A DNA stretch of 64,000 nt, from assembly GCF_026210795.1 (NCBI RefSeq), contig NC_089444.1, positions 858,501-922,500 of the forward strand. The letters run 5' to 3'. Position 1 is the first letter of the stretch; each line of letters opens with the position of its first letter. This document shows, one piece after another, positions 3,804-37,338 of the stretch. Source of the stretch: Rhizophagus irregularis (lineage: Eukaryota > Glomeromycota > Glomeromycetes > Glomerales > Glomeraceae). A program made the translations under genes and the position numbers. The notes beneath the pieces were generated by a model, which was not told the DNA's origin, ran no database searches, and was given only the letters and a program-made list of their open reading frames with translations.

Positions 3804-4670
3804 TTAATCAGCAATTGAACAGTCTAAACATTCGGAATGATCATCATTATTATCGCATTTCGAAAGGTCTTTTGTAAAAGGGTTTAATAATCGAGATATA
3901 TTACTAGCTTGTGGATGTGTTGTTGATTGGTTAATTTCAATAGATGAAATAGATGAAATATTTACTTTTCTGTATTCTTCTGCTTCTTTAAATTGCTTTT
4001 TAATTTCACTGTTTAAACCAAAATTATACGAGTAAATAATATTTTCTATTTCAATAGCATTTGGTCTATTGTCTGGAACCGAATCCCAACACCTTTCCAT
4101 TAATTCAACGTAACATTTTGGTGCTTCTAATTCATTTAATTTAGGTCTGATTCCATTACATATACCTAATGCCAATACTTTATCATGAGCATGATCAAAG
4201 AAAGGTTGTCTTCCGGTTGCTACAAAATACATAATCATACCAAAACTGTATATATCTGCTGCTTTGGTGTAAGATTTTCCTCTTAACACTTCTGGAGCTA
4301 CGTAAGGCATTACTCCGTAAATTTTGGATTTGTCTACACTACCAATTTCTCCACATAATCCCATATCTGAAATATACGTATCATTATATCGGTTAACATA
4401 TCCATATTCAAATAATATATTTCCTGTGTGAAAATCACGATGAACCATCTGTTTTTGATGAATTTCATTTAAACCAATAATAATATTATATAGTGTTCGT
4501 AATTTATTATTCCAGTCAAAATGTTTATAACATTTATTTATCCAATCATTAAAATTTCCACCTTCTGCATATTGAAGAACTATAATATAATTCTTTGTTT
4601 TCAGATCTTGAGATATTCCATATATTTTAACAATGTTACTACCACATTTATTCATTGAATATGCTTTAAT
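3804..4670 (-). CDS. Array 1 terminal exon: kinase hinge, C-lobe and tail
   Basis: This exon supplies what the cassettes lack. It starts IKAYSM after a TTGGTAG acceptor and reads KIYGISQ, the hinge LQYAEGGNFNDW, catalytic loop HRDFHTGNILF (Asp and Asn present), then SDMGLCGE (DMG in place of DFG, as in the sister gene), PYVAPEVLRG (APE), DIYSFGMIMYFVATG and the conserved RCW...RP Arg. The C-terminal tail carries THPQ..SRLLNPFTK and ECLDC, also seen at the end of array 2. All catalytic-loop residues are present, so an active kinase is plausible when joined to an intact N-lobe. It stops with TAA at 3804. Confidence 0.9.
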   Translation of the reverse strand: MKAYSMNKCGSNIVKIYGISQDLKTKNYIIVLQYAEGGNFNDWINKCYKHFDWNNKLRTLYNIIIGLNEIHQKQMVHRDFHTGNILFEYGYVNRYNDTYISDMGLCGEIGSVDKSKIYGVMPYVAPEVLRGKSYTKAADIYSFGMIMYFVATGRQPFFDHAHDKVLALGICNGIRPKLNELEAPKCYVELMERCWDSVPDNRPNAIEIENIIYSYNFGLNSEIKKQFKEAEEYRKVNISSISSIEINQSTTHPQASNISRLLNPFTKDLSKCDNNDDHSECLDCSIAD

Positions 4671-7600
4671 CTACCAAGATAAGAGCTTAGTTGTTAATAT
4701 ACTTATAAGTCATATATTTAATAACATGATATAACATAATCACATACCTCTTTTAAAATTTCGTCAATTATATCATGTGATTTATTTAACAATTTTAAAG
4801 CAACTTTTTTATACGGCCCTCTTTTCCATTCTTTATCATAATGCAATGGACCATTTTTCCATTTCGCTGAATATACTGTAGCAAATCCACCTTTACCTAT
4901 TATTTTAATAGCCTTAAATTGATTATACGGTATCCATTCAAATACTATAACATTTGGGTTATTAATTTTTAATTGCATTGCTTGAATAAATTCATCAATT
5001 TTTTCATTCCCACTCCAATTTGTAAAATTTTTTCTTAAATAATCAATTTGACATGATTTACACCATTTACATTTTATGTCTGTATATTCTTCGATACATA
5101 TCTCACAATAACTTCCAACATATCCTTTATGATTATTCTTAAGAACCATAACATAATCTTTGGAATCGGGCTTTTGAGTTATTCCATGTATTTTGAAATA
5201 GTTATTGTATATTTTCACCTAAACAATTTTAATTACATTAAAAGAGTATTAAGTTAGATTTATAGAAATTAGAAACTTTCGTAAAATCATACCTTATTTA
5301 GAAAACCATTAATCGTATTTTTTGAGTTACATAATTTCAAAGTAACTTCTTTGCTAGTTTGCACTCTTACCCATTTCTTTTTATTTGACTCATATTCCAA
5401 TGGGCCATCATTCCATAATGCTGAATATATTGTATTGTTTACTTCCTTAATACTACTAAATTGATCATATGATATCCATTCAAATATTATATCACTTGAA
5501 CAATTTACTTTTAATTGCATTTCTTGAATAAAATTATCAGTTTTTTCATTTCCACTAGTCCAATTTTTAAAATTTTCTTTTAAATTCTTTATTTGACATG
5601 ACTTGCACCATTTATTCTGTATTTCTGTATATTTCTCATCACATTCTTCACAATATCCATCTTGAGAAACCAAGACATAATCTTTTGTATCAGGATTTTG
5701 AGATATTCCATATATTTCAAAATTTTCATCACTTCTATATACTATAATCTGTTTAATAACAAAATTAATATTAAAAATTGTATTTATCTAAATTATACTT
5801 AAAACTTTCATACCTTATTCAGAAAATTATTAATTATATTTTGTGAATCACATAGTTTCAAAGTAACTTCTTTAGCTTGTACTCTTGCCCACTTCTTTTC
5901 ACTCAAATTATATTTCAGTGGGCCATCTTTCCATAATGCTGAATATACAGTTTTATTTATTATTTTAATATTATTAGATTGATCATATGATATCCATTCA
6001 AATACTGAATCTTTTGGGTTATTGACTTTCAATTGCATTTCTTGAATAAAATTATCAATTATTTCATTTTTACTGGTCCAATTTTTGAAATTTTCTTCTA
6101 AATATTTTATTTGACATAGTTTACACCATTTATGTTCTATCTTTTCAATGCATTTTTCACAGTACCTTCTGTCATATTTCTTTTGAAGAACCATAATATA
6201 ATCTTTTGTATCTGAATCTTGAGATATTCTATATATTTCAAAAATTTTATCATTTTCATATACTTTAATCTATTTTAATAGAAAAAATTAATATTTAAGA
6301 TATATATAGATTAGTATATTTAAAACGTTCATACCTTATTAAGAAATTCATCAATCATATACTGTGAATTACATAGTTTTAAAATAACTTCTTTAAATTG
6401 TATTCTTACCCACTCTTTTTTATTCTGATTATATTTCAATGGACTATCTTTCCATAATGCTGAATAAACTGCATTGCTTATTTTCTTAGCATCACTAAAC
6501 TGATCATATGGTATCCATTCAAATATTATATCTTTTGGGTAATTGATTTTTAATTGCATTTCTTGAATAAAATTATCAATTTTTTCATCTTCACTAGTCC
6601 AATTTCTGAAATTTTCTTTTAAATTCTTTATTTGACATGGTTTACACCATTTATACCTTATATCTGTATACATCTCACTACATCTACAATGTCCATCTTC
6701 AAGAATCAAAATATAATCCTTTGTGTCAGGATTTTGGGATATTCCATATATTTCAAAATTTTTATCACTTTCATATACTCTAACCTATTTAATAGCAAAA
6801 TAATTAATAACTAAGTAATATGTACTATTTAAATTATTCTTAAATTTTTCATACCTTATTAAGAAATTCATCAATTGTATTTTGTAAATTATATAATTTT
6901 AAGTTAACCTCAATTTGGACTCTTGTCCGTTCCTTTTTATTCTGATCATATTTCAATGGTCCAGTTTTCCATAATGCTGAATATATTGAGTTACTTATTT
7001 TTTTAATACTGCTAAACTGATTATAAGGTATCCATTCAAATATTATATCATATGAATGATTTACTTTTAATTGCATTTCTTGAATAAAATTATCAATTTT
7101 TTCATTTTCACTAGTCCACTTTATAAAAGTTTCCTTTAGATACTTTATTTGACATGGCTTACACCATTTATCCCATATTTCTGTGTACTTTTCGCCACAT
7201 TCTTTACAATAGTATCCACATTGAAAAACTAAAATATAATCTTTTGTATCAGAATTTTGAGATATTCCATACAATTCATTTTTACATGCTTTTAACTATA
7301 TTAATAGCAAAATTAATATCAAAATAATAATTATTTTAATTGTATTTAAACCATTCATACCTTATTAAGAAATTCATCAATTATATTTTGTGAATTAAAT
7401 AGTTTCAAATTAATCTCAACTTGTACTCTTGTCCACTCTTTTTTGTTCTGATCATATTCCAATTGGCCATCATTCCATAATGCTAAATATATTGTATTAC
7501 TTATTTCCTTAATATCAATAAATTGGTTATATGATATCCATTCAAATATTGTATCACGTGGATGATTTACTTTTAATTGCATTTCTTGAATAAAATTATC

Positions 7601-10600
7601 AATTTTTTCATTTCCACTAGTCCAATTTTTAAAATTTTCTTTTGAATTCTTTATTTGACATGGTTTGCACCATTTATACCATGTATCCGTATACTTTTCA
7701 CCACACTTTTCACAATGGAATCCAGTTTGAAGAACTAATATATAATCCTTTGTATATGGATTTTGAGATATTCCATATATTTCAACATTATCATTATTTT
7801 TATATTCCACAACCTATTTAATAATAAAATTAATATTTAAATAATATTTACTTAAATTGTATTCAAAATTTTTATACCTTATTAAGAAATTCATCATCTG
7901 TATTTTGTGAATTAAATAGTTTCAAATTAATCTCAACTTGCACTCTTATCCATTCTTTTCTGTTCTGATCATATTTCAATTGGCCATCATTCCATAATGC
8001 TAAATATATTGTATTACTTATTTCCTTAATATCACTAAATTGATTATATGATATACATTCAAATATTATATCACGTGGACGATTTACTTTTAATTGCATT
8101 TCTTGAATAAAATTATCAATTTTTTCATTTCCACTAGTCCAATTTTTGAAATTTTCTTTTAAATTTTTTATTTGGCATGGTTTACACCATTTATACGATA
8201 TTACTGTATACTTTTCACCGCATTCATCACAATGGTATCCAGTTTGAAGAATTAATATATAATCCTTTGTATCAGGATTTTGAGATATACCATATATTTT
8301 AAAATTATAATTTTTATATTCAACAACCTATATTAATGACAAAATTAATATTTAAAATAACAATTACTTAAATTGTATATAAAATCTTCATACCTTATTA
8401 AGAAATTCGTCAACTGTATTTTGTGAATTAAATAGCTTCAAGTTAATTTCAACTTGTACTCTTGTCCATTCTTTTTTGTTTCGATCATATTTCAATTGGC
8501 TATCATTCCATAATGCTAAATATATTGTATTACTTATTTCCTTAATAACACTAAATTGATTATATAATATCCATTCGAATATTATATCACGTGAACGATT
8601 TACTTTTAACATTTCTTGAATAAAATTAATATCAGTTTTTTCATTTCTACTAGCCCAATTTTTAAACTTTCATTTAAATTTTTTATTTGACATGATTTGC
8701 ACCATTTAAGGATTATATTTGTATACTTTTCAACACATTCTTTGCAATAGTATCCATCTTGAAGAACCAATATATAATCATTTGTATCAGGATTCTGAGA
8801 TATTCCATATACTTCAAAATTATTATCACTTTTATATTCTAAAACCTATTTTAATAACAAAATTAATATTAAAAATAATATTTACTTAAATTATATTTAA
8901 AATTTATACCTTATTAAGAAATTCATCAATTGTAATTTGTGAATTACATGGTTCAAATTAATCTCAACTTGTACTCTTATCCATTCTTTTTTGTTCTGAT
9001 CATATTTCAATTTGCCATCATTCCATAATGCTGAATATATTGTGATATTTGTTTCCTTAATATCACTAAATTGATCATATGATATCCATTCAAATATTAT
9101 ATCTTTTGGGTTATTTATTTTTAATTGCATTTCTTGAATAAAATTATCAATTTTTTCATTTCCACTAGTCCAATTTTTGAAATTTTCTTTTAAATTTTTT
9201 ATTTGACATGGTTTGCACCATTTATACGATGTTTCTGTATTCTTTTCACCACATTCATCACAATGGTATCCAGTTTGAAGAACCAATATATAATCCTTAG
9301 TATCAAGATTTTGAGATATTCCATATATTTTAAAATTGTCATTTTTGTATTCTACAACCTATTTTAATGACAAGATTAATATTTAAAATAACAATTACTT
9401 AAATTGTATTTAAAATTTTCATACCTTATTAAGAAATTCATCAATTGTATTTTGTGAATTAAATAGTTTCAAATTAATCTCAACTTGTACTCTTATCCAC
9501 TCTTTTTTGTTTCGATCATGTTTCAATTGGTCATTATTCCATAATGCTGAATATATTGTATTGCTTATTTTCTTAATATCACTAAATTGGTTATATGATA
9601 TCCATTCAAATATTATATCTTTTGGGTTATTTATTTTCAATTGCATTTCTTGAATAAAATTATCAATTTTTTCATTTCCACTGGTCCAATTTTTGAAATT
9701 TTCTTTTAAATTTTTTATTTGACATGGATTGCACCATTTATACAATATTTCTGTGTACTTTTCACCACACTCTTCACAATATCTATCTTGAAGAACAAAA
9801 ATATAATTCTTTGTATCAGGATTTTGAGATATTCCATATATCTTAAAATTATCATTTTTATATTCTACAACCTATATTAATGACAAAATTAATATTTGAA
9901 ATAACAATTACTTAAATTGTATATAAAATTTTCATACCTTATTTAGAAATTCGTCAACTGTATTTTGTGAATTAAATAGCTTCAAGTTAATTTCAACTTG
10001 TACTCTTGTCCATTCTTTTTTGTTTCGATTATATTTCAATTGGCCATCATTCCATAATGCTGAATATATTATATTGCTTATTTTCTTAATATCACTAAAT
10101 TGATCATATGATATCCATTCAAATATTATATCTTTTGGGTTATTAATTTTTAATTGCATTTCTTGAATAAATTCATCAATTTTTTCATTTTCACTAGTCC
10201 AATTTTTGAAATTTTCTTTTAAGTATTTTATTTGGCATGATTTACACCATTTATAGAATATTTTTTCATACTTTTCACCACATCCTTTACAATATCCATC
10301 TTGAAGAACAAAAATATAATCTTTTGTATAAGGATTTTGAGATACTCCGTATATTTTACAAATATTGTAGTAATTACTACTACTTCTAATTGAGTATTGT
10401 CTAGCCTAGTATTAATTAAACCAAAAAAGTATTAATGTATTAAAAAGGAGTGTTGCTAATCTTAACCGGGGGAAATCAACTGGGTAAGGAATTATGTTAA
10501 TTCTGGTACAATTCAGTTTTGATGCTTGACTAGGAATTATGTAATTCTACCTATCAGTTAATTTTCTCCCTGGTTAATTGCAGTTATTCTCTTGAAAAAA

Positions 10601-10908
10601 AAGTATTTTAAAAATTAGAATTTACATAAAAGAATTCATACCTCATTACGTAATTCATAGGTTGTGATACTTTGTGAGTTATTTAAATATTTTAAATTAA
10701 CAGTCACATCGTTCTGGTTACACTTCCATTTTGCTATTGCAAAATCACCATTACCAATCTTTTTAATGTTACTAAACTGATTATATGGCACCCATTTAAA
10801 TATAGTATCACTTGGGTCATTAATTTCTAATTGCATTTCTCGAATAAAACCATCAATTTTATTGTTCCCACTGGTCCAACTTCTAGAATTTTTTTCTAAA
10901 TTTTCCAT
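3804..10908 (-). CDS. TKL-like protein kinase with 12 tandem N-lobe cassette exons (array 1)
   Basis: Thirteen exons are supported: 10908-10642, 10405-9938, 9871-9425, 9358-8910, 8845-8394, 8327-7878, 7813-7361, 7295-6855, 6784-6335, 6269-5814, 5748-5293, 5218-4748 and 4670-3804. Donors are mostly GTATGAA, acceptors T/A-rich ATAG or TTAG. All exons are phase 0-0 and divisible by three, except 9358-8910 and 8845-8394, which each lack one base. Each internal exon encodes the beta4/beta5 hinge (YGISQNPDTKDY), a C-x2-C..KWC-x2-C knuckle, a helical part (NWTSGNEKIDNFIQEMQ), FEWI-YNQF and beta1-alphaC. If all were joined the product would exceed 2,000 residues. The first-exon start (ATG 10908) is the least certain point, since its upstream sequence reads on as KPCK. 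Possible alternative: exons used singly by alternative splicing. Confidence 0.75.
4748..5218 (-). CDS. Array 1 cassette 12: intact N-lobe exon next to the C-lobe
   Basis: A 157-codon exon, phase 0-0. It reads the hinge KIHGITQKPDSKDY, a Cys knuckle (CEIC ... KWCKSCQ), FEWIPYNQF, then a full glycine loop IGKGGFATVYSAKW and beta3 VALKLL with the ATP-binding Lys. It ends LKE, retaining the alphaC-type Glu. It is the only cassette of array 1 with a normal G-x-G-x-x-x-V loop, and it directly precedes the C-lobe exon, so these two exons reconstitute a canonical kinase domain. The donor is GAG/GTATGTG. Confidence 0.85.
8394..8845 (-). pseudogene. Array 1 cassette 5 with one-base deletion
   Basis: The exon is 452 bases, one short of 151 codons. 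The knuckle KWCKSCQIKNLNES reads normally, then a missing T in the Phe codon before KNWAS shifts the frame. The downstream part (FEWILYNQF, YLALWND, INLKLFNSQN) is open in the family frame. EMQLK is also reduced to EMLK by an in-frame loss of Gln. Two neighbouring cassettes, each with a single-base loss, argue that inclusion of every cassette is not strictly selected. Confidence 0.7.
8910..9358 (-). pseudogene. Array 1 cassette 4 with one-base deletion
   Basis: The exon is 449 bases, one short of 150 codons. The frame is lost after VEINL: the next bases read NHVIHKL, whereas a one-base insertion would give the family ending NSQ.TIDEFLNK. If this exon were included the message would be out of frame, so either it is skipped, the gene is damaged, or the base is a sequencing or assembly error. 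Confidence 0.7.
10466..10573. mobile_element. 108-bp MITE with TTAA duplication inside kinase intron 1
   Basis: TTAA at 10462-10465 and 10574-10577 flank inverted ends CCGGGGGAAATCAACTG and (inverted) CCAGGGAGAAAATTAACTG. A TTAA target site with C-rich ends is the pattern of piggyBac-type elements. It lies in the intron between the first two exons of array 1, which is longer (about 236 bp) than the other introns. Confidence 0.6.
10642..10908 (-). CDS. Array 1 first exon: linker plus N-lobe start
   Basis: An 89-codon exon beginning MENLEKNSRSWTSG and ending ELRNE before a GTATGAATT donor. It has FKWVPYNQF and a partly preserved loop KIGNGDFAIAKW, but no second loop Val, and VNLKYL at beta3. 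Direct splicing of this exon to the terminal exon (4670) would keep the frame and give a single kinase domain. The ATG at 10908 is preceded in frame by a KPCK codon run, so an upstream exon containing half of the knuckle may have been lost or lies unseen. Confidence 0.6.
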
Positions 10909-31598: not shown

Positions 31599-32540
31599 CT
31601 ATACTACAATCTTACAATCTAAACATTCAGTATCTTCATATTTTGGGAGATTTTTTGTAAAAGAATTAAGTAATCGAGATGTATAAACAGCCTTTGGATG
31701 AGTAGTATGTGATCGACTATTTTTATTAGATAAAAGATTATCTTTTCTGTATTCTTCTGCTTTTTTAAATTGCTTTTCAATTTCATCATGATCGTCTGTA
31801 CCTAAAATTTCTCCTTTATATGACTTATTAAATTGCTCCTTGGAAATTCCTTTTTCTGTATCAAAAATTTCTCCTCTGTATGACTTACGAAACATTAAAA
31901 TCTGTTCATACGTTTCATCAGATTTTTTTCTATTTTTTGGATTTGGATCCCAACATATTTTCATTAAATCAATGTAACATTTTGGTGCTTCTAACTCATC
32001 GATTTTAGGTCTACTTCCTTGACATATATCTAGTGCTAATAGCTCATCATGAGCACAATCAGCAAAAGGTTGTCTTCCAGTTGCTGCAAAATACATAATC
32101 ATACCAAAACTATATATATCTGCTGCTTGAGTATAAGGCCTTCCTCTTAATACTTCAGGAGCTACATAAGGCATTACTCCATAAATGCATGATTTGTCTA
32201 TTTTGCCAACTTCACCACATAATCCCATGTCAGAAATATATATTATGCTATTACTAAAAATATTTATATTTTTTGTAAAAAATAATATATTTCCTGTATG
32301 AAGATCACGATGAACTATATGTTTTTGATGAATCATTTTAAGACCATTACTAATATTAAGTAATGTATTTATTTTAAATAACCAGGAAAATTTTTCGCCA
32401 TTTTTATTTACCCAACTATTAAAATTTCCACCTTCCGCATATTCAAGAACAATAATATATTCTTTTGTAACTGGATCTTGAGATAAACCATAGATTCTAA
32501 GGATATTATTACTATGCCTATCTATTGAATATTCTTTGAT
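31599..32540 (-). CDS. Array 2 terminal exon: kinase hinge, C-lobe and tail
   Basis: Starts IKEYSIDRHSNN, then LRIYGLSQDPVTKEY, hinge LEYAEGGNFNSW, catalytic loop VHRDLHTGNILF, SDMGLCGE (DMG motif), PYVAPEVLRG, DIYSFGMIMYFAATG and ICWDPNP. The tail after the kinase domain repeats the phrase YRGEIFD / YKGEILG (a small internal duplication) and has EEYRKDN, THPKAVYTSRLLN and ECLDC as in array 1. Catalytic-loop Asp and Asn are present. TAG stop. Confidence 0.9.
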   Translation of the reverse strand: MKEYSIDRHSNNILRIYGLSQDPVTKEYIIVLEYAEGGNFNSWVNKNGEKFSWLFKINTLLNISNGLKMIHQKHIVHRDLHTGNILFFTKNINIFSNSIIYISDMGLCGEVGKIDKSCIYGVMPYVAPEVLRGRPYTQAADIYSFGMIMYFAATGRQPFADCAHDELLALDICQGSRPKIDELEAPKCYIDLMKICWDPNPKNRKKSDETYEQILMFRKSYRGEIFDTEKGISKEQFNKSYKGEILGTDDHDEIEKQFKKAEEYRKDNLLSNKNSRSHTTHPKAVYTSRLLNSFTKNLPKYEDTECLDCKIVV

Positions 32541-35500
32541 CTATTAAATCATTAAAAACAATTATTACAGTATATCATCAAAAAATAATTAAAATTTTAA
32601 AAGTAATCCATACCTCGTTTAGAAATTCATTAGTAATATCATGTGAGTTATATAAACGTTTTAAAGCAACTGTTTTATTTGAATGTCTTAGATATTTCTT
32701 TTTATTAGGATTATAAAATGATGGACCATTTTTCCATATTGCTGAATATACTGTAGCAAAACCACCTTTATCTATTTCATTAACATTATCAAATTGATCA
32801 TATGGTATCCACTCAAATACTATATCAAGTAAGTCATTAATTTTTGATACCATTTCTTGAATGAAATTATTAATTTTTTCATTTCTGCTAATCCAATTTG
32901 TGGGATTTTTTTTTAAAGAATCTAACTGACATGGCTTACACCACTTATATTGTATATCTGTATAATTATTTCCACATTTTACACAATATTTTTCAAACTC
33001 TTTTTCAAAATATTTATTGTGAAGAACCATTACATATTCATTTGCAATAGGATTATGAGATATTCCATATATTTCAAGAATACCATATAAATTAAATGAA
33101 TATGTTTTAACCTAGTTTGTAATGTAAAAAAAAACCATTAAAGAAAAAATATTAATTGAAGTGTTAGAGCCGAAGAACAGAAGAAATTTCACACCTTATC
33201 TATAAGTTCATTAGTGATATTTTGGGAATTATTTAAACATTTTAAACATTTTAAAGCAACAGTTTTTTCTGAACTCCTCATATATTTGTTTTGGTTAATG
33301 TTATAATATAATGGACCATTTATCCATTTTGCTGAATATACTAAAGTAAATTCATCTTCATCTACTACTTTATTAATATTATGAAATTGATTGTATGGTA
33401 TCCATTCAAACACTTTATCCCATGAATTAACATCCCATGAATCACTATTAATTCTTAATTGCATTTCCTGAACATAATCATCAATTTCTTTATTTTTACT
33501 TGTAGAATTTGTAAAACTTTTCATTTGGCATGGTTTACACCATTTATAATAAGTGCTTGTATATATTTCATCGCATTTTAAACAATGATTTTTGTAGTAA
33601 TTATCTTGAAGAACTATAACATTGTACTTTTCATTTCGAGATATTCCATATATATTATTACAATAGTGACTTTTTATTGAATATTCTTTAACCTATTAAA
33701 ACATAAAAAATTAACTACTAATATTATAAAAGCAATTAAATTAATTCAGAGATTTACCTTTTTATTTAGAAATTCACCAGTATTGTTCTGTAAATCATTT
33801 AAGCATTTTAAAGTAACTGTTTTATTTGAATCTCTTTTATACATCATATTATTCCAGTAAAATGGGCCATCCTTCCATATTGATGTATATATTGTGGCAA
33901 AGCTACTCTTGTTTATCTCTTTAATATCACTAAACTGATTGTATGGTATCCATTCAAATATTATATCAGATGGATCATCAAGTTTTAATTGCATTTCTTG
34001 AATTAAATTATCAATACTTTTATTATTACTTGTCCAATTTACAAAGTTTCTTTCTAAACGACTTTTTTGACACGTTCCACACCATTTATTCCATGTATTT
34101 ATGTAAACTTTATTACATTTTGCACAACATTCTTCACGAAAAACCACAATATATTCTTTTGTATCTGGATTTTGAGATATTCCATATATTGTATCAATGT
34201 ATGTATCATTAATATCATCATGATTATTTGTTAAATATGTTTCAACCTATTAATTGTTAAAAAAAAATATTATATTATTATATTATAAAACAACCATATT
34301 AATTTTTGAAAAAATTTCATACCTCATCAATTATAAATTGTGAATATTTTAAAGTAACTTTTGTATCTGATTTTCTTAGATATTCCTTATTGTTAGTATT
34401 CCAATATAATGGACCATCGTTCCACTTTGCTGAATATATTATGACACACTCATCATCATCTATTTTTATGAAATTATTAAACTGGTTGTATGGTATCCAT
34501 TCAAATATTATATCAGATAATTTCTTAATTTTTAACTGTATTTCTTTAACAAAATTATCAATTTTTTCATTTCCACTTGTCCAATTTGTAAGGTTTACTA
34601 AGTACTCTATTTGACATGGTTTGCACCATTTATGCTGTATATCCGTATATATTTTGTCACATCTTTTACAATATTCATTTTGTAAGACTATAATATAATT
34701 TTTTGTATCAGGATTCTGAGATATTCCATGTATTTCCAAATCAGGTTTAACCTACAAATAAAGTAAGAAAATAATTATCAATAATTGTTAATCATTGACT
34801 GAATTTATGGAAATATTTATACCTCATTAAGAACATGATTAATATTTTGTGCATTATGTAAACATTTTAAGGCAATTGTTGCATGTAATTTTCTTATATA
34901 CTTTCTATTATTCCAACATAATGGACCATCCTTCCATTTTGCTGAATATATTGTGACAAACTTATCATTATCTATTTTTATGAAATCATTAAACTGGTTG
35001 TATGGTATCCATTCAAATATCATATCATTCAAGTCACCAATTTTTGATTGCTCATTTTGAATAAACTTATCAATTTCTTTATTTCCACTGGTCCAATTCG
35101 TAAAATTTTCTTCTAAATTTTTTATTTGACATGGTTTACACCAATTATAAGTTGTGTTTGTATATAATTCGCCACATTTTACACAACATTCATTATGAAA
35201 AACCATAACATATTCTCCATTAATTAGATTTTGAGATATTCCATATATTGTAATATTAGTAATAGCATCTTTGATGTCATCTTTTAAATATATTTTGACC
35301 TAGTATTATGCATTAGAAAAAAAAATCATTATTATGTTACAAAATATTTAAATTAATTTTTAGAGAAATATCATACCTCATTTAGAAATTGATTAACATT
35401 TTGTAAATTATAAAAAGATTTTAAAGTAACTTTAATACCTAATTTTCTTATATATTTCATACTGCCATTATCCCAATATAATAAACCATTCTTCCATTTA

Positions 35501-37338
35501 GCTGAATATATTTTAGAAAATCTGTCATTATCAATTTCTTTAATATTATTAAACTGATTGTATGGTATCCATTCAAATATTTTGTCAGATGGAGATTTGA
35601 TTTTTAATTGCATTTCTTGAATAAAATTATCAACTATTTCATTTCCACTGGTCCAGTTAAGATTTTCTTTTAAGTACTTTATTTGGCATTGTTGACACCA
35701 TTTATTATTAGAATTTGTATATTTATTATTGCATTTTACACAAAACCCTTTTTCAAAATACTTACTATGAAAAATTATCATATAATCTTTTGTATTAGAA
35801 TTTTGAGTTATTCCATACATTTTAAAATTATTACTTAAACATTTCTTAACCTATTAAAATGAATAAAAATAAATAATTGATGTATTATTATAAAGATATA
35901 CATAAATCATGAATTTCATACCTCATCTAGGAATTTATTATTAGTATTTTGTGAATTATGAGAACATTTTAAAGCAATTGTTTTATTCAAATCCCTTGTA
36001 TATTTTATTCTGTCAACATTATAACATAATGGACCATTCCTCCATTTTGCTGAATATACTACAGCAAAACCACTTTTATCTATTTCTTTAATGTTATTAA
36101 AGTGATTGTAAGGCACCCATTCAAATACTATGTCATCATATTCATCAATTTTTAATTGCTTTTCTTGAATCAATTCATCAATATCTTTATTTTCACTAGT
36201 CCAATTTGCAAAATTTTCTTTAAAATGATTAATTTGGCATTCTTTGCACCATTTATGGTAACTATCTGTATATATATTACCACATTGTTTACAATATTTA
36301 TCTTGAAGAATAATAATATAAGCCTCTATACTTGGATCTTGAGATATTCCATAAGTCTCAATGCCAAATTTCAATGAATCTTTTTTATACTATTGAATAT
36401 AAAAATAAATTACTATATATTAACAAAAATCTAAATTTGAAAGAAATTTCATACCTCAATTAAAGATTCTTCAGTTATATTTTCCAAATATCGAAAAGCA
36501 ACTTTCTTATTTGGTTCTCTTATATATTCTTTGTCTTTCCAGAATAATGGACCAACTTTCCATATTGCTGAAAATACTCCATTTCCTATTTCTTTAATCT
36601 CACAAACCTGATCATATGGTATCCATTCTAATACTATATCAGTCGGGTTTATAATTTGTAATTGCATTTTTTGTATGAAATTATCAATATTTTCATTTCC
36701 ACTACTTTTTTTAAAATAATTTATTTGACATGGTTTACACCATTTATAATATAAATTTGTATATATTTTATCACAATTTATACAATATTTTTTGTATTCA
36801 TCCTCAAGAACAATAATATAATTATTTGTATCTGGATTTTGAGATATTCCATATATTTTATAAGCATTATTTAAATTTTTCAAACATACTTCAACCTTTT
36901 AAATTTGAACATAAAAAAATTAAATAATCATTATTATTATTTTTATTTTAACACAAAACATATTATGCATTTTAAATGGAAATTTTATACCTTATTTAGA
37001 AATTCATTTTGTGAATAAGGCAAATATTTTAAAGTAACAATTGTATCAGATTTCCTTATAAATTCATTATTACAAATATATAATGGGCCATTCTTCCATT
37101 TTGCTAAATATATTGTATCTTTAAATATTTCTTTCATGTTACTAAATTGATTATATGGTATCCATTCAAATATTATATCAGGTGAATTTTTATCAATTTT
37201 CAAGTTTATACTTCGAACGAATTTGTCGATTTCTTCATTTCCACTGGTCCAACTTACAATATTTTCTTTTGTTTTGTATCTTTTACAAATATCTGTACAA
37301 TTTTCACTACATTTCTCATGGTTATTTTCTGATGACAT
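31599..37338 (-). CDS. TKL-like protein kinase with 9 tandem N-lobe cassette exons (array 2)
   Basis: Ten exons: 37338-36991, 36895-36455, 36389-35922, 35850-35377, 35299-34823, 34751-34323, 34246-33758, 33692-33195, 33111-32614 and 32540-31599. All are phase 0-0 and divisible by three with open frames, so unlike array 1 nothing is visibly broken. Donors are mostly GTATGA or GTATGG, with GTGTGA and GTAAATC each used once; acceptors are CTAG, ATAG or TTTTAAAAG. Start ATG 37338 (MSSENNHEKCSENC) opens a short Cys-containing leader; no upstream exon is needed. Each cassette has the hinge YGISQNPDT, a C-x2-C/WC-x2-C knuckle, a helical linker, FEWIPYNQF and beta1-alphaC. Joined, about 1,670 residues. 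The ATP site is completed only with the last exon. Confidence 0.82.
32614..33111 (-). CDS. Array 2 cassette 9: intact N-lobe exon next to the C-lobe
   Basis: A 166-codon exon with hinge EIYGISHNPIANEY, knuckle CVKCGNNYTD..WCKPCQ, FEWIPYDQF, glycine loop DKGGFATVYSAIW, beta3 VALKRL and final LNE (alphaC-type Glu). With the terminal exon it forms a canonical kinase domain. As in array 1, the best-preserved cassette is the one adjacent to the C-lobe. Confidence 0.85.
33195..36895 (-). repeat. Seven internal N-lobe cassette exons (array 2, cassettes 2-8)
   Basis: Units are more diverged from one another than those of array 1. Glycine loops range from nearly intact (DKSGFAVVYSAKW with IALK in 36389-35922; NKSSFATIYTSIW with VTLK in 34246-33758) to lost (GNGVFSAIW with VAFRYL, lacking the beta3 Lys, in 36895-36455; DDDECVIIYSAKW in 34751-34323). 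Knuckle cysteines are mostly kept. Divergence with open frames suggests that this array is older and under some constraint. Confidence 0.8.

Follow-up and report, generated by a model that had tools for sequence, protein, structure and literature searches.

A kinase gene lies on the minus strand at 3804-10908 of a 64,000-nucleotide (nt) stretch of Rhizophagus irregularis DNA (GCF_026210795.1, NC_089444.1:858,501-922,500). The whole stretch is referred to here as the window, and positions given without a contig label are window positions. The gene is composed of a start exon, 11 cassette exons and a single exon for the C-lobe of the kinase domain (Table 1). Exon 1 was called from its open reading frame (ORF) and GT donor, and its start residue is the same in the paralogue L001. 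All 12 introns are of the form GTAT...AG and, in transcript order, are 236, 66, 66, 64, 66, 64, 65, 70, 65, 65, 74 and 77 nt long. Every exon end is in phase 0 when read in its own frame, the frame changing only inside cassettes 3 and 4. The exon lengths and phases agree with a first-pass annotation of the locus, which had described 11 internal exons, nine of them exact multiples of three and all in phase 0-0. These properties follow from the duplication of one intron-flanked unit and do not in themselves point to alternative splicing. The repeat lies far outside what chance would produce, with 10 copies of a 300-nt unit at a spacing of 506-521 nt, the other nine being 74-93% identical to the reference copy.

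Table 1. Exons of the window kinase gene, a second array in the window, and places elsewhere in the genome where cassettes are fused.
Feature	Position	Strand	Description
Exon 1	10642-10908	-	267 nt; ATG at 10908; linker, degenerate N-lobe beta1-alphaC; knuckle mostly lost
Cassette 1	9938-10405	-	468 nt; beta4-beta5, four-cysteine (Cys4) knuckle, linker, pseudo beta1-alphaC
Cassette 2	9425-9871	-	447 nt, open; no Pfam family
Cassette 3	8910-9358	-	449 nt; frameshift close to 3' end
Cassette 4	8394-8845	-	452 nt; mid-exon frameshift, two overlapping ORFs
Cassette 5	7878-8327	-	450 nt, open
Cassette 6	7361-7813	-	453 nt, open; no Pfam family
Cassette 7	6855-7295	-	441 nt, open
Cassette 8	6335-6784	-	450 nt, open
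Cassette 9	5814-6269	-	456 nt, open
Cassette 10	5293-5748	-	456 nt, open
Cassette 11 (adjoins C-lobe exon)	4748-5218	-	471 nt; catalytic N-lobe half
C-lobe exon	3804-4670	-	867 nt; beta4 to end, HRDFHTGN, DMG, APE; stop codon 3804-3806
Second array, C-lobe	31626-32537	-	same class
Second array, nine cassettes	32614-37317	-	same class
Fusion place	C5:3322396-3322707		junction-spanning protein search
Fusion place	C13:353903-354229		junction-spanning protein search
Fusion place	C9:856927-857238		junction-spanning protein search

Every cassette starts at beta4-beta5 of one N-lobe, continues through a CxxC...WCxxC knuckle and a linker, and finishes with beta1-alphaC of the next, the names of strands and helices being a reading of the alignment to the kinase profile and not taken from a solved structure. 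Cassette 11 alone gave a weak match to positions 3-41 of the kinase family PF07714 (E 0.033, below the cut-off), and the C-lobe exon alone matched positions 61-256 (E 4.1e-31). When the end of cassette 11 was spliced to the C-lobe exon, the match extended over positions 3-256 of 258 (E 3.8e-39). As cassette 11 ends at position 41, the C-lobe starts at 61 and the two together span 3-256, the cassettes are permuted N-lobes with a cysteine knuckle, as the first-pass annotation had proposed. The catalytic residue set (glycine loop, VAxK, HRD...N and D-x-G) is complete in the window gene, and cassette 11 is the sole cassette of the array to have the intact loop (GKGGFATVY) together with VALK and the alphaC glutamate; the other ten cassettes have a shorter loop (e.g. 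SN----TIY), and exon 1 reads IGNGDFA. Because neither of the two internal cassettes compared with Pfam (2 and 6) matched any family, counts of domains would probably miss such units.

The window gene is one of a class. A search with one window cassette as the query produced at least 150 scored matches among 4,387 first-look candidates, many of them in tandem at a spacing of about 550 bp. The sample analysed comprised the window's first 16 kb and 40 loci, of which 36 had been chosen by a cassette match and four (L037-L040) by a C-lobe match alone. Across these 41 scanned sequences, 42 arrays with a C-lobe were found, each with 3-12 cassettes, exon 1 included (the three cassettes of L039 include fragments); three short runs lacking a C-lobe within the retrieved stretches (L020 plus, L024 minus and L025 plus) did not enter the counts. 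The loci picked by their C-lobe only also carry arrays, of 10, 5, 3 and 6 cassettes. The exons that lie between exon 1 and the C-lobe number 11 in the window gene, 9 in L001, 6 in both L002 and L003, and 2 in the broken-looking L004. After four junctions with odd gaps had been set aside, 241 of 258 junctions had a phase-0 donor and acceptor; the median intron is 72 nt and the donors are mostly GTATG or GTATA. Among C-lobes of at least 200 amino acids (n=42), HRDxHxxN is present in 33, DxG in 40 and APE in 41. The remaining nine (e.g. L003, L009 plus strand, L038 and L040) have HHD or HCD in place of HRD, with the catalytic aspartate and asparagine retained. The open-licence literature searched yielded no account of N-lobe exons in tandem arrays in Glomeromycotina.

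The place of the intact N-lobe is nearly invariant in this sample. A complete glycine loop, GxGG[F/Y], was found in 40 of 41 cassettes adjacent to a C-lobe, versus 0 of 212 upstream (0/172 internal and 0/40 first cassettes; Fisher P = 6.5e-46, an overstatement since related cassettes are not independent). Before uncovered rows were dropped there were 42 last, 178 internal and 42 first cassettes, the uncovered last row being that of L039. The alphaC glutamate follows a similar distribution: it is present in all 32 readable last cassettes, and among 110 readable internal cassettes the residue is glutamate in 62 and lysine in 48.

Cassettes have also been joined permanently in other genes. When a protein sequence spanning a cassette-cassette junction was compared with the genome, three places among the matches listed were continuous, of the right length and stop-free (Table 1), and the remaining spans over the whole junction query, again among the matches listed, contain stops. 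At the C5 place (L041), a single stop-to-stop frame of 330 codons holds a pseudo-N-lobe (GKDEFFTIY) and then a true N-lobe (GKGGFAKVY), and the C-lobe exon comes next. In L042 and L043 it is exons 1 and 2, the first and second cassette, that are fused; the two loci are clear paralogues, and the three fusion genes therefore represent two intron-loss events. The L042 junction is base-exact on the acceptor side, as judged from the neighbouring exons. Two further candidates were set aside: C23:1396662-1397036, stop-free and about 17 codons over the expected length, resembles an intron that contains no stop, and the length of L037 likewise suggests a stop-free intron still in place. Exact intron loss usually proceeds via spliced mRNA, so the mRNAs of the fusion genes would have had neighbouring cassettes joined. 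Two cassettes that lie within one exon cannot be alternatives to each other in L041, L042 and L043.

These two sets of observations bear directly on the possibility that the cassettes are mutually exclusive, in the manner of Dscam, with one cassette or exon 1 joined to the C-lobe so as to exchange the ATP-site half and the knuckle. The first-pass annotation had held that any cassette could complete a kinase with the C-lobe. The topological part of that claim stands, as the permutation lets any cassette complete the fold and exon 1 joined to the C-lobe is open for 377 codons. However, an upstream cassette so spliced would give a kinase domain without a complete glycine loop. Interchangeable cassettes would be expected to retain the ATP loop in several copies per gene, and none of the 212 upstream cassettes has a complete one. 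The window array has a single kind of splice site, and no signal of docking/selector pairing emerged when introns 1, 12 and 2 of the array were compared with the rest against 100 shuffles (mean z of 0.14, 0.84 and 0.50, respectively). On the strength of the loop-position test and of the exons that hold two cassettes in three genes, the swap was rejected, and its probability is considered very small.

A second possibility is that every transcript keeps the last cassette and C-lobe and that a varying subset of the upstream cassettes is skipped, with isoforms differing in their number of pseudo-N-lobes. Nearly all junctions are phase 0, hence most subsets would stay in frame; cassette number differs among close paralogues; and omission of window cassettes 3 and 4 together yields an open product of 1741 codons (dropping either one alone still gives a stop). 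Under intron definition, short introns with mostly GTATG or GTATA donors favour the routine splicing of every intron. The fused units of the intron-loss genes could not be skipped singly, and the order of cassettes is kept across most duplicated arrays compared: in eight pairs, which share loci, each usable cassette found its best match at the same index (46/46, one frame-split cassette being unusable). Skipping is accordingly judged unlikely, though less so than mutual exclusion. In a tree of the window family, the C-lobe-adjacent cassettes form a group of five (support of 99 in the Shimodaira-Hasegawa-like approximate likelihood ratio test) and 27 internal cassettes plus one first cassette form another (98); in a tree of 243 cassettes, many forks of which are poorly supported, the C-lobe-adjacent label changes 18 times versus a shuffled mean of 37.5.

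Loss of the glycine loop has not been accompanied by a general loss of conserved residues. In internal cassettes the beta2 tryptophan is kept in 174 of 176 and the beta3 lysine in 162 of 174. Each of the four knuckle cysteines is at least 98% conserved in the internal cassettes that have that column (167/168, 168/168, 165/167 and 168/168); the columns are gapped in 10-11 of the 178 internal rows, mostly those of the knuckle-less L037. Matches of cassettes to the zinc ribbon families of Pfam were below the cut-off only, and the motif is probably a zinc knuckle, to judge by its spacing of cysteines. Under a model in which each cassette takes random substitutions amounting to half of its divergence from its closest sister, the product of the probabilities that the nine unbroken window cassettes should all be stop-free is 1.8e-11; restricted to the eight internal cassettes, it is about 1e-9. 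The model is crude and ignores shared ancestry. The open state of those eight thus appears unlikely under drift and, judged by their residues and reading frames, the upstream cassettes are not junk.

Several members of the class depart from the common plan or were seen outside the sample. The second array in the window lies outside the 42-array count, and none of the seven displayed of its eight upstream cassettes has a complete loop. L037 (G000:C16:2454201-2459700) is a ten-cassette array whose readable cassettes have no Cys4 knuckle and in which GKGGF occurs just in the C-lobe-adjacent one. L001 has a partial additional C-lobe with no array of its own. In L004 (G000:C16:252501-261500), at positions 6734-9000 of that locus on the minus strand, the first cassette lies in one open frame with 17 Sel1 matches; some 4.4 kb separate its last cassette, which is cut short, from the C-lobe, and this paralogue looks broken. 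The cassette runs at G000:C14:712412-715154 and 720056-722743, about 7.6 kb apart, share several equal match scores and are likely to be a recent tandem duplication. A transfer RNA scan of the window, with the program set to the bacterial code, found none.

The reading that best accommodates the position of the intact N-lobe, the fused exons and the conserved index is that of a giant kinase in which tandem pseudo-N-lobe/knuckle modules precede one true N-lobe and one C-lobe; working from sequence, we put its probability at roughly two in three. The first-pass annotation had offered such a protein as one of two outcomes, and it is this outcome, not the Dscam-like exchange, that the evidence favours. 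An intron-flanked unit (beta4-beta5, Cys4 knuckle, helical linker, then the beta1-alphaC part of the following N-lobe) would have been duplicated in tandem, and the units would be read successively into a single protein, in which linker, pseudo-N-lobe and knuckle are repeated before the true N-lobe and sole C-lobe. Most cassettes would then be present in most transcripts of the window gene. The terminal N-lobe and C-lobe would be the enzyme, and the pseudo-N-lobes would no longer handle ATP normally. Loss of the glycine loop with retention of the fold and knuckle residues fits a role in scaffolding or recognition, and the pseudo-N-lobes may form a repeat arm that recruits partners to the terminal kinase or restrains it. 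The knuckle may bind zinc, and repeat number may be altered by unequal exchange between introns.

A number of observations weigh against the giant kinase. Two of the seven reciprocal best cassette pairs between the window gene and its nearest paralogue, L001, are out of order, which indicates that the middle of the window array has turned over. The last cassette of L038 reads GxNGF, the sole exception among the 41 counted, and that of the second window array reads DKGGFATVY (DxGGF), its first glycine changed. Of the 258 junctions, 17 have no simple phase-0 pair. AlphaFold2 models of cassette 6, made with nine window cassettes, were too poor to be used (predicted local distance difference test 52.7, predicted template modelling score 0.43). 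The ratio of non-synonymous to synonymous substitution (dN/dS) among close paralogues does not differ between internal cassettes (0.67), last cassettes (0.66) and C-lobe exons (0.66); wrong-frame controls of internal cassettes gave 0.56 and 1.01, an overlap in A/T-rich DNA for which dN/dS was dropped as proof of selection. Finally, the all-exon transcript of the window gene, as assembled, contains a premature stop (codon 545 of 2042).

This stop raises the question of the state of the window copy, and for the frameshifts of cassettes 3 and 4 assembly error, decay and skipping are each possible from the sequence. In the case of decay, the window copy would be a pseudogene broken by two frameshifts, and only paralogues such as L001 would work. 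The out-of-frame cassettes with substitutions beside the shift, the resulting stop, and the lack of any split cassette in L001, whose C-lobe is 95% identical, are in keeping with this. The assembly was made from polished Nanopore R9.4.1 reads, with a quality of Q36.27 and a read N50 of about 25 kb (PMC10234402). That quality corresponds to about one error of any type per 4 kb, so that two false indels are plausible in 7 kb of A/T-rich repeats. Breaks in the sample are no more frequent than this: among 220 cassettes other than first ones, 20 were marked incomplete, of which nine belong to L037, two (L006-5 and L007-5) are shortened yet open, and two rows of L005 are one split cassette, leaving on our reading about nine breaks, eight of them from the marked set and the other in window cassette 3, over some 100 kb. 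The C-lobe exon and the nine cassettes of the window gene other than 3 and 4 are open, and the C-lobe dN/dS between the window gene and L001 is 0.25. Decay of this copy is considered improbable, somewhat more so than skipping. That the array itself was collapsed or expanded during assembly has a negligible probability: tandem repeats can be mis-sized, as the first-pass annotation had allowed for, but each of the nine unbroken cassettes is 8-23% divergent from the sister closest to it, the reads are long relative to a 7-kb array (N50 of about 25 kb, PMC10234402), and arrays on the same plan lie at dozens of other places.

A broader proposal is put forward only tentatively, being more doubtful than the giant kinase itself. 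A kinase N-lobe, without any C-lobe and capped by a Cys4 knuckle, may have become a new stand-alone repeat unit, and 2-11 of these in tandem would give dozens of the symbiont's kinases, perhaps hundreds, a rapidly changing recognition arm. Such an arm might diversify in length and sequence by unequal exchange, and perhaps by cassette skipping, in a manner akin to the leucine-rich repeats of plant and animal receptors.

The expansion of kinases is an established feature of these fungi (PMC6123716, PMC10234402, PMC8647823, PMC9453076): R. irregularis has 2,533 kinase genes (PMC10234402), and PF07714 is the commonest motif among the expanded genes (PMC6123716). The window gene belongs to the same genome and the same expansion, and its C-lobe with the last cassette makes a full PF07714 domain. 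The text of PMC6123716 and PMC10234402 that deals with PF07714 expansion counts domains or genes, and tandem N-lobe exons are not described in it. If many of the approximately 2,500 kinase genes carry arrays that Pfam does not see, part of the expansion would be a sensing or scaffolding system built on repeats, one that standard domain counts overlook.

Three known arrangements resemble the class in part. In Dscam-type clusters the exons are tandem duplicates, symmetric in phase and alike in length, and the window array shares all these features; tandem exon duplications have been reviewed (PMC9013439). Unlike those of Dscam, units of the window class are not interchangeable: the glycine loop is complete at one position, introns 1, 2 and 12 of the window array gave no pairing signal, and neighbouring units are fused in some genes. 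Kinase-pseudokinase tandems, of which the JAK family is one case, contain whole two-lobed pseudokinase domains. They occur in plants as well, e.g. Yr15 (PMC6170490). As is proposed for the window gene, they place a degenerate kinase part beside an active one in a single protein. The window class differs in that its degenerate parts are N-lobes only, with a Cys4 knuckle after each, in 2-11 copies; the complete glycine loop is lost in 172 of 172 internal cassettes and the beta3 lysine kept in 162 of 174. Lastly, MLKL homologues with Sel1 repeats are present in Glomeromycotina (PMC8778642); there too a kinase-like protein carries a repeat arm, and L004 adds Sel1 matches to a gene of the window class. 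Unlike the Sel1 arm, the repeat of the window class derives from the kinase N-lobe itself: half a kinase domain has been turned into a repeat module, and the single intact unit of each gene, which almost always occupies the same position, serves as its built-in control.

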